The translations under genes were made by a program, and so were the position numbers. From the NCBI GenBank assembly GCA_900469345.1, contig UBWZ01000015.1, positions 62,001 to 126,000 on the forward strand: 64,000 nucleotides of DNA. The letters run 5' to 3'. Each line of letters begins with the position of its first letter. Within the stretch, counting starts at the first letter, position 1. This DNA comes from Hyphomicrobiales bacterium (GTDB lineage Bacteria; Pseudomonadota; Alphaproteobacteria; Rhizobiales; Rhizobiaceae). A model generated the notes under the pieces. That model did not search any database. It saw only the letters and a program-made list of their open reading frames with translations, and was not told the DNA's origin. This document shows positions 29,858 through 31,550 of the stretch, piece by piece.

Positions 29858-30517
29858 TCAATCGTCCGCATTTCTCAAAGCCAATGCTGCCCCAAGCGGG
29901 CCGAGCACGGCAAAAAACATCGTGATGGCGATCAGGATCAGGAAGGGCGGCAGGAACGGCGCCGGTTCCTCGACGGCGGCATAGGCGGCGCTGACGCCGA
30001 AGATCAGCACCGGAATGGCGAGCGGCAGGACGAGGATCGAGACCAGCAAACCGCCGCGCGGCAGGGCGACGGCCACCGCCGCGCCGACCGCGCCGATAAA
30101 GGTGAGCGCCGGCGTGCCGACCAGCAATGTCGCCATGGTGGCGCCGATCGCCACCTCGTCCATGTTCATGAACAGGCCGAGCAGCGGCGAGGCGATGACA
30201 AGCGGCAGGCCATGGCCGAGCCAGTGAGCCAGGCATTTGATGAGCACGGTGAGCACCAGCGGATGCTCCTGCATTAGCATCAGATCGAGCGACCCGTCCT
30301 CGCGGTCGGTCTGGAACATGCGGTCGAGACCGAGCAGGGACGACAGCAGGGCGCCGATCCAGACGATGGCCGGTCCGATGCGGGCAAGCAGGTTGAGGTC
30401 GGGCCCGACGCCGAAGGGAATGACGGCGACGACCGCGGTGAAGAACAGGACGCCGATCAGCGCCCCGCCGCCAGCCCGCACGGAAAGCTTCAGATCGCGG
30501 GAGAGGAGGGCGATCAT
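29858..30517 (-). CDS. ccmB: Heme exporter protein B (CcmB)
   Basis: A 219-residue ABC-type permease subunit with six spans. Family features are LLSLLGLDRMFQTDREDGSLDL-type cytoplasmic loop near residues 60-80, GHGLPLVIASPLLGL, and LLVGTPALTFIGAVGAA. With CcmA it frees holo-CcmE from CcmCD in an ATP-dependent step. In most bacteria ccmA and ccmB touch; here 391 bases of repeat-bearing DNA separate them. Confidence 0.95.
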   Translation of the reverse strand: MIALLSRDLKLSVRAGGGALIGVLFFTAVVAVIPFGVGPDLNLLARIGPAIVWIGALLSSLLGLDRMFQTDREDGSLDLMLMQEHPLVLTVLIKCLAHWLGHGLPLVIASPLLGLFMNMDEVAIGATMATLLVGTPALTFIGAVGAAVAVALPRGGLLVSILVLPLAIPVLIFGVSAAYAAVEEPAPFLPPFLILIAITMFFAVLGPLGAALALRNADD

Positions 30518-30577
30518 ATGACGAGGCCTCTTTGTCGGGAGGGGTTGGGCCTCAGACGGCGGAGGCCGGGGCCGTGG

Positions 30578-30600
30578 ATCCTCGGGTCAAGCCCGAGGAT
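30578..30600. repeat. Dispersed palindrome ATCCTCGGG-N5-CCCGAGGAT
   Basis: A perfect 9-base inverted repeat with loop TCAAG. On the other strand it reads as the frequent rhizobial intergenic phrase that translates to LDPRIHG. It lies between ccmB and ccmA. Confidence 0.7.
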
Positions 30601-30664
30601 GACGACGGAGGGGTGGAGGATGACGACGGGGTGGAGGATGACGGAGGAGGGGTGGATGACGGTG
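30595..30664. repeat. Short degenerate tandem repeats
   Basis: Units beginning GAGGATGACG and ending GGGGTG occur at 30595-30615, 30616-30633 and 30634-30654, with a partial fourth copy at 30655-30664. Unit lengths are 21, 18 and 21 bases. The first unit starts inside the right arm of the preceding palindrome, suggesting it grew by slippage from that end. Confidence 0.75.
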
Positions 30665-30686
30665 CGCTCGAGGGTGTGGGGCGCAC

Positions 30687-30889
30687 CCCCCTCTGCCCTG
30701 CCGGGCATCTCCCCCTCAAGGGGGGAGATCGGCCAGACGGTCAGGCGTCGTTCCCCATCGGAGGCAAATGCGGCCGCCGAGCTTGCGCTCAAGATCATTT
30801 CGGCAGCCGGGTAGGTTGCTTGGACGTGAAACGGCGCTCCCATCCGATCTCCCCCCTTGAGGGGGAGATGCCCGGCAGGGCAGAGGGGG
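30687..30889. repeat. RIME-like element with 46-base perfect inverted arms
   Basis: The 46 bases at 30687-30732 recur exactly as the reverse complement at 30844-30889, around a 111-base centre. Each arm is itself hairpin-forming (ATCTCCCCC-TCAA-GGGGGGAGAT). The arm sequence matches what I know of rhizobial intergenic mosaic elements. It carries no gene and sits between ccmB and ccmA. Identical arms suggest recent insertion or gene conversion. Confidence 0.8.
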
Positions 30890-30908
30890 ATGTTGCTGGA
30901 GGTGATAC

Positions 30909-31550
30909 TCACCACATCGCCTCCACCGCGCCGGCAAAGCCGGTCATCTTCAGTTCCTCGGCAGTCTCCAGTCCGAGCGGCTGGTGGGTTGCCGCCATGA
31001 CCATGCCACCCAAGGCGAGATGCTGCCTGATCAGGCCGGTAAAGACGCCTTCGGCGGACCGGTCGAGCGCTGCCGTCGGTTCGTCCAGCAGCCAGACGGG
31101 GCGGTGGCTCACCATCAGCTTGGCAAAGGCCATGCGGCGCTGCTGCCCGGCCGAGAGGTAGCCGAAGGGCAGGTGCACGATGTCGCCGAGCCCGACCGCC
31201 TCGGCGGCGTCCAGCGCCGAAAGGCCGCGGCCGCCGGCATCGCCGAGGAAACGCTGCCAGAAGACGAGGTTCTCGCGCACCGAAAGCTCCGGCTTCATCG
31301 CATTTCGGTGGCCGAGATAGTGGCAGGCTTCCGCCGCCCGCATGCCGGCCTCGCCGCCCGGCTTATCGAGGGAGACGCGGCCGGTCTCGGGACGCAACAG
31401 GCCGGCCACGACGCGCAGCAAGGTGGACTTGCCGGAGCCGTTGCGTCCCGTCACCACGAGGGCCTTGCCTGCCTCTATCGTGAACGAAAGATCGGCGAAC
31501 AGCAGGTCCTCTCCGCGCCGGGCGCTCAGATGTTCGGCTGACAGCCGCAT
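30909..31550 (-). CDS. ccmA: Heme exporter ATP-binding protein CcmA
   Basis: A 213-residue ABC ATPase of the cytochrome c maturation system. Walker A is GRNGSGKSTLL (about residues 36-46), the signature is LSAGQQRRMAFAKL, and Walker B is PVWLLDEPTAALD. The start lies 268 bases from the divergent acnA start. It is the first gene of the leftward ccm group, but a 391-base repeat-bearing gap follows before ccmB, so coupling to the rest may be weakened. Confidence 0.95.
   Translation of the reverse strand: MRLSAEHLSARRGEDLLFADLSFTIEAGKALVVTGRNGSGKSTLLRVVAGLLRPETGRVSLDKPGGEAGMRAAEACHYLGHRNAMKPELSVRENLVFWQRFLGDAGGRGLSALDAAEAVGLGDIVHLPFGYLSAGQQRRMAFAKLMVSHRPVWLLDEPTAALDRSAEGVFTGLIRQHLALGGMVMAATHQPLGLETAEELKMTGFAGAVEAMW

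Follow-up and report, generated by a model that had tools for sequence, protein, structure and literature searches.

Palindromic repeats between ccmA and ccmB of Rhizobiaceae lie in a phased open frame and are probably translated linkers

We found that among 112 gaps of more than 5 nt separating ccmA from ccmB in Rhizobiaceae, 100 are 1 mod 3 in length, and that a single reading frame, -1 relative to ccmA, runs free of stops through 80 of the 90 gaps of at least 100 nt. We conclude that palindromic repeats probably persist in translationally coupled junctions as translated linkers. From the pattern of the sequences we infer that the linker would be translated, that ribosomes would enter and leave it by re-initiation, and that broken coupling or polarity would be the cost avoided.

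The window is the whole stretch of DNA that was analysed (64,000 nt, from genome G000). On its minus strand ccmA is followed by a 391-nt gap, counted from the ccmA stop (30909) to the ccmB ATG (30517), and then by ccmB and ccmC (PF01578). The first-pass annotation had described a gap of this length holding a 46-base perfect inverted repeat around a 111-base centre, with an adjoining palindrome and short tandem repeats near the arms, and we confirmed each of these features. The 46-base arms are perfect (30687-30732/30844-30889), the palindrome lies at 30578-30600, and the tandem repeats are three copies of an imperfect 26-nt unit (30595-30659). The full arms (30684-30732 and 30844-30892) are 49 nt long, 98% complementary and 111 nt apart; simple arithmetic puts an exact inverted match of 46 nt in a span of 901 bases far outside what chance would give. 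The linker ORF that reads through the gap begins at a GTG that shares GTGA with the ccmA stop (-4) and ends at a TGA that shares ATGA with the ccmB start (-4); it is also listed as 30514-30915, with 133 aa, when counted from a GTG further upstream. The coordinates of the features are collected in Table 1.

Table 1. Genes, linker frame and repeats at the ccmA-ccmB junction of the window.
Feature	Position	Strand	Details
ccmA (ABC ATPase subunit)	30909..31550	-	ORF; PF00005; stop TGA = 30911-30909
ccmB (membrane subunit)	29858..30517	-	ORF; PF03379, E=4e-70; start ATG 30517-30515
Linker ORF	30514..30912	-	132 codons + stop; ORF listing
First arm in transcript (R1, RIME-like)	30844..30892	-	linker-frame reading PLCPAGHLPLKGGD
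111-nt centre of element	30733..30843	-	between arms
Second arm	30684..30732	-	linker-frame reading ISPLEGEMPGRAEGG
Three imperfect 26-nt repeats (family D1)	30595..30659	.	spaced 18-21 nt
P4 palindrome and its GACG tail	30578..30604	.	

We pooled 184 distinct ccmA-ccmB junctions of the family from 230. Five loci without a readable ccmA were left out, as were L270 and, from this pool, the order-level loci L168-L196. The gap was 5 nt or less in 71 junctions (56 at -4, 12 at -1) and longer in 112, so the earlier statement that these genes usually abut is partly true. One of the 184, L268, was set aside for a run of N and was also left out of the Agrobacterium tree; two junctions were kept despite N, L292 at ccm and L328, which is out of phase, at the ligase. 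Recognisable palindromic repeats of several types were present in 79 of the 112 longer gaps. Two coupled overlaps in a row, NTGA where ccmA ends and ATGA where ccmB begins, yield a gap of 1 mod 3, and this length was found in 81 of the 90 long gaps and 19 of the 22 short ones. At the upstream end a start codon (ATG, GTG or TTG) lies across the ccmA stop at -4 in 99 of the 112, and at the downstream end the first stop in the linker frame is the TGA inside the ccmB ATGA in 91 of the 112. For the 90 long gaps dinucleotide shuffles gave an expectation of 20.5 open linker frames. Open counts for the remaining sense frames were 11 and 24, and for the antisense frames 26, 12 and 39.

We sorted the longer gaps by the motif classes defined in this analysis, R1 (the arm family of the window element), R2, R3 and P4. 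The gap was both in phase and open in 46/52 cases with R1, 9/9 with R2 and 5/6 with R3, as well as in 18/22 short gaps, 8/11 long gaps without a recognised repeat, and 11 of the remaining 12 junctions, which hold mixtures or P4. Phasing is not the property of one repeat type. Some of the classes share short similar stretches (an R3-type repeat, L120, and an R1-type repeat, L144, are 85% alike over 40 nt), so we do not claim separate origins for R1, R2, R3 and P4. The genomes are related, and neither the counts nor the p values are independent. We compared 49 disjoint nearest pairs with unequal gap lengths, which reduces the effect of kinship but does not remove it, and found that the lengths differed by a multiple of 3 in 42 (binomial 5e-14).

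As a control we used the next junction of the same operon. Among 125 distinct ccmB-ccmC junctions (genus, named and Agrobacterium loci) the genes overlapped in none, and gap lengths of 0, 1 and 2 mod 3 occurred in 26, 34 and 65. The three sense frames were open in 39, 52 and 34 of the 125, the last being the equivalent of the linker frame. These gaps are mostly shorter (38-131 nt, with one of 311), which makes them a better control for phase than for openness. Phasing is not common to the next junction of the operon. The 311-nt gap, in L033, holds a MITE-like insert with inverted ends (AGGGTGAGGACT close to one, AGTCCTCACCCT close to the other) at an unphased junction.

A second case was found at an unrelated pair of genes. 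In a rough test of R1 copies lying between co-directional ORFs, one copy (L323 in genome G009, its junction returned as L324) separated the gene of a ligase-associated exonuclease (TIGR04122) from that of an ATP-dependent DNA ligase of the cisplatin-response type (TIGR04120). The gap (1463-1706, 244 nt) is open and is bounded by TTGA and ATGA. We then read this junction across the genus (L324-L380), where 55 of 57 loci were usable and two were cut by contig ends. Eight of the 55 junctions were at -1, one was at +4 and 46 were longer. The longer gaps were 1 mod 3 in 41/46, their linker frame was open in 40 while the other frames were open in 10 and 13, and the linker frame ended in the ligase ATGA in 39/46. 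Among 23 disjoint pairs, 18 differed by a multiple of 3. Without the discovery genome 40/45 gaps were in phase and 39/45 open, and for long gaps 30/36 were open against 7.6 expected. The linkers at this junction are often built from repeats.

The R1 family is dispersed. We found R1 at 9 places in the source genome (26 matches, which we grouped), and a 25-nt arm core with at most 2 mismatches gave 7 matches in that genome, 28-76 in ten relatives and 0 for the reversed-pattern control. R1 appears to resemble RIME, the consensus of which was reportedly published in Osteras 1995. A scan of the genome allowing up to 3 mismatches located the P4 palindrome at 23 sites, against 0 for its reversed-pattern control; the palindrome is often seen as inverted pairs 45-82 nt apart (C11, C19, C24, C29 and C38 of G000), which suggests that paired P4 forms a two-palindrome element. 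The 111-nt centre has a single occurrence in the source genome. We read the cluster in the window as a resident copy of a RIME-like palindromic repeat that is dispersed in rhizobia and has settled at this junction, together with a second type of palindrome. The element was also inspected for the two marks of a MITE, terminal inverted repeats and a target-site duplication: its arms are terminal inverted repeats, and TA was seen by eye on both sides of the element in many relatives, though not in the window. REP or REPIN elements mobilised by a RAYT were considered and rejected: the source genome (one genome, 99.87% complete) has no match to PF01797 (Y1_Tnp), and the control was positive in 6/14.

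Dispersal of this kind raises the question of whether these are ordinary intergenic repeats, RIME- or REP-like selfish elements that are tolerated in a spacer and have no role in translation. Occupancy of the junction is indeed patchy. We sampled 57 genomes of the genus, of which 56 were readable, and found 20 tight junctions, 3 short ones and 33 with a gap of more than 60 nt, 25 of the 33 containing R1. The comparison for an empty site proposed in the first-pass annotation thus finds tight junctions in relatives, and its test for an old, fixed element, presence throughout the genus, has a divided answer, with R1 arms in 25 of the 56 and a tight junction in 20. A further 60 genomes of the family, drawn from the best matches of 199 searched, gave 59 readable junctions, 31 tight, 7 short and 21 long. 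Species differ in whether they carry R1, the other palindrome types (R2, R3, P4) or nests of these, and the ccmAB tree of the genus calls for at least 10 changes between filled and open junctions and at least 13 changes of R1 presence. Deletions also occur, since L274 and L275 have near-identical ccmAB (branch 0.0038 changes per column) and gaps of 43 and 202 nt. Some properties of R1 itself weigh against the linker reading as well. R1 is poor in stops, with the same frame on the other strand open in 37/53 ccm copies, and in-phase arm spacing is already the commonest elsewhere (36/67 non-ccm pairs among the matches listed for three Agrobacterium genomes), as against 23/24 of the Agrobacterium ccm elements. 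At 20 other R1 copies, however, only 8/40 readings were open and in phase, compared with 47/53 at ccm. A selfish repeat does not predict a length of 1 mod 3 or a single open frame, nor does it predict a like pattern across repeat types and short gaps free of repeats. We consider this explanation unlikely.

The first-pass annotation had taken the perfect arms as a sign of a recent event. Within a named collection, records of Neorhizobium and allied Rhizobium came closest by CcmB. On the ccmAB tree the closest genome is G047 (pairing support 98/45; trio with G016 100/100). There the junction contains the same element, whose arms match those of the window at each of the 45 shared nt, while identity in ccmB is 89%. 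The centre in G047 is 88% identical to that of the window over 117 nt and was found in G047 only at this junction (2 matches there). Perfect arms were present in 16 of 35 elements, which had been selected for arms of at least 36 nt. Since the same element with identical arms is found in G047 and perfection is common, perfect arms are no mark of youth, and the claim of recency is not supported. The arms may be kept alike by gene conversion, template switching or replacement from other copies. In G016 (N. lilium, L033/L112) R1 is at the junction with a centre that is not recognisably related, and searches with the 111-nt centre gave no match in G016 or G029. The 673-nt ccmA-ccmB gap of the nearest relative (L111/L032) contains a partial second tandem copy of flank, arm and centre.

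The element centre can be found in either orientation. In Agrobacterium (L257-L293) the R1 centre at ccm occurs both ways round between close species while the arms are near-identical, with 14 centres in one orientation, 12 in the other and no fewer than 7 changes when mapped on the ccmAB tree. The linker frame was open in each of the 24 ccm elements tested from Agrobacterium, whether the centre pointed one way (13) or the opposite way (11). We compared 434 pairs overall and found inverted centres in 25 of the 54 with homologous centres; for L261 and L262, whose ccmB genes are 95% identical, the centres are only 76% alike once one is reversed. Repeated inversion in place was examined as a general reading and was weakened by the finding that about half of 20 elements elsewhere have ccm-like centres, which makes replacement or new insertion possible. 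The reversed centre of L292 is 95% identical to L280 and 89% identical to its sister L287. On these comparisons inversion in place is well supported for L292 only, and replacement is possible elsewhere. The centre of L134 was unique by search, which is weak evidence as the same search missed known homologous centres of G009 and G052.

We propose the following mechanism for the persistence of repeats as linkers. Where no repeat is present the junction is commonly a start/stop overlap (ATGA), which is the classic arrangement for translational coupling. If 391 nt of untranslated sequence with a 46-bp hairpin were inserted there, this coupling should be lost and the mRNA exposed to Rho-dependent polarity, so that repeats would persist chiefly where they supply a reading frame that links the two genes. 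A ribosome that finishes ccmA would begin again at the NTG overlapping the stop (NTGA), read through the repeat and unfold its hairpins, terminate at the TGA within ATGA and initiate once more on ccmB. The constraint admits exceptions, as 12/112 ccm gaps and 5/46 ligase gaps are out of phase. A Shine-Dalgarno-like 4-mer precedes ccmB in 67/90 long junctions (24.5 expected by shuffling) and in 61/71 tight ones; this fits re-initiation, but it also fits an independent start, so that ccmB might initiate alone.

The hairpins could instead be regulatory, terminating or processing the ccm transcript and thereby setting the ratio of ccmA to ccmB, as the first-pass annotation had suggested. The predicted fold of the transcribed strand of the gap is very stable (-212.7 kcal/mol, z = -9.1), with 0 of 100 shuffles as stable, and RNase III cleavage at a Correia element is reported in a review (PMC10969869). 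However, no terminator-like site was found in 30400-31100, the junction is tight in 20/56 genomes of the genus, and a translated frame would melt the hairpin. The proposal that the hairpins terminate the transcript is not supported, given the lack of such a site and the keeping of the gap as an open reading frame, and we give the regulatory explanation little credence. A search of 30400-31100 for a promoter likewise found none. Rfam matches to the hairpins came from four microRNA models, all scoring far short of the gathering threshold, and were taken as chance matches of shape. Programmed -1 frameshifting at the end of ccmA, in place of re-initiation, could also hold ribosomes in the linker frame, which is the -1 frame relative to ccmA. 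Re-initiation needs a start codon at the ccmA stop and frameshifting does not; one is present at -4 in 99/112 junctions, and frameshifting is in our judgement slightly less credible again. A start codon at -4 is in itself weak evidence, because any base but C before TGA gives one.

To determine how the linkers evolve we counted substitutions by codon position in pairs selected to agree in length and phase. The 11 disjoint pairs of ccm linkers showed 114, 120 and 92 substitutions at positions 1, 2 and 3, compared with 73, 16 and 546 in ccmB of the same pairs, and the 7 closest linker pairs gave 56, 55 and 40. At the ligase junction 6 pairs gave 114, 120 and 118, compared with 30, 17 and 227 in the start of the ligase gene, and the two pairs above 80% identity were still flat at 21, 20 and 22. 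Since substitutions are flat over the codon positions, it is the open frame that is kept and not a peptide. The open frame, overlapping one neighbour with its start and the other with its stop, would also suit a genuine small protein gene of the ccm system, but given flat codon positions, sequences that differ between lineages, no match in a Pfam search with the linker protein of the window and no room for a linker in 71/184 junctions, this is the least probable explanation of all.

It is possible, and we put it forward tentatively, that several palindromic repeat types of Rhizobiaceae colonise coupled operon junctions generally, with translation acting as the filter by which only in-phase, stop-free insertions would last. 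General phasing was not seen when further R1 copies located between co-directional ORFs were tested roughly with unverified ORFs. This counts against such a general habit, unless most of the pairs tested are uncoupled.

Linkers made of repeats have a precedent in the mycobacterial interspersed repetitive unit (MIRU). The proposal of a coupled ORF in MIRU is reportedly that of Supply 1997, cited for it in a review. According to the review PMC12548453, coupling declines with growing distance between stop and start and Rho loads on untranslated RNA, and MIRU is described as a dispersed repeat whose ORF is coupled downstream at -4 and which inserts with little effect on the downstream gene. So far as that description goes, the rhizobial linkers are alike in having an ORF through the repeat and a -4 overlap, with the stop in ATGA in 91/112 at ccmB and 39/46 at the ligase. 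They differ in being from another phylum, in comprising several palindrome types as well as short repeat-free linkers, and in having element centres in both orientations. By this analogy we regard the rhizobial linkers as a MIRU-like solution reached via different repeats in another phylum. Spacings of -4 and -1 are given as those favoured for coupling in PMC12548453 and PMC6728339, and the tight junctions and linker ends seen here resemble the ATGA/TGATG termination-reinitiation arrangement treated there (PMC6728339), except that here the junction is double, with a repeat-built ORF between two real genes.

RIME (Rhizobium-specific intergenic mosaic element) is described in PMC2573895 as a dispersed intergenic repeat of rhizobia with conserved sequence and structure, dozens of copies per genome and no function assigned. 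R1 copies share with that description dispersal in rhizobial genomes, a common sequence and a predicted hairpin, and we call R1 RIME-like; the description there does not mention translation (PMC2573895). Rickettsia palindromic elements (RPE) are kept in frame and form part of the coding sequence, according to PMC10969869 and PMC3733652. RPEs as described lie inside genes and add residues, whereas the rhizobial repeat is a separate frame between two genes, and the linker frame is neither that of ccmA nor that of ccmB. The Chunjie MITE is similar in that a repeat is reportedly located in a Geobacter operon without disturbing it. We found no report of translated RIME linkers in titles and abstracts of the literature, which is weak evidence of absence as most subscription journals lay outside the search.

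Our data suggest that coupling is protected at ccmA-ccmB and not at ccmB-ccmC. The comparative signature of a gap of 1 mod 3, an open -1 frame and flat codon positions could serve to find coupled gene pairs without experiments. The findings also make testable the "intergenic" repeats of unassigned role, which are phased at two junctions and, judging from sequence, probably translated. Some of the short hypothetical ORFs annotated in rhizobia may possibly be coupling linkers rather than proteins. R1 may be adapted to the linker role, readable in either orientation, and such repeats may serve as portable translated linkers in many operons.
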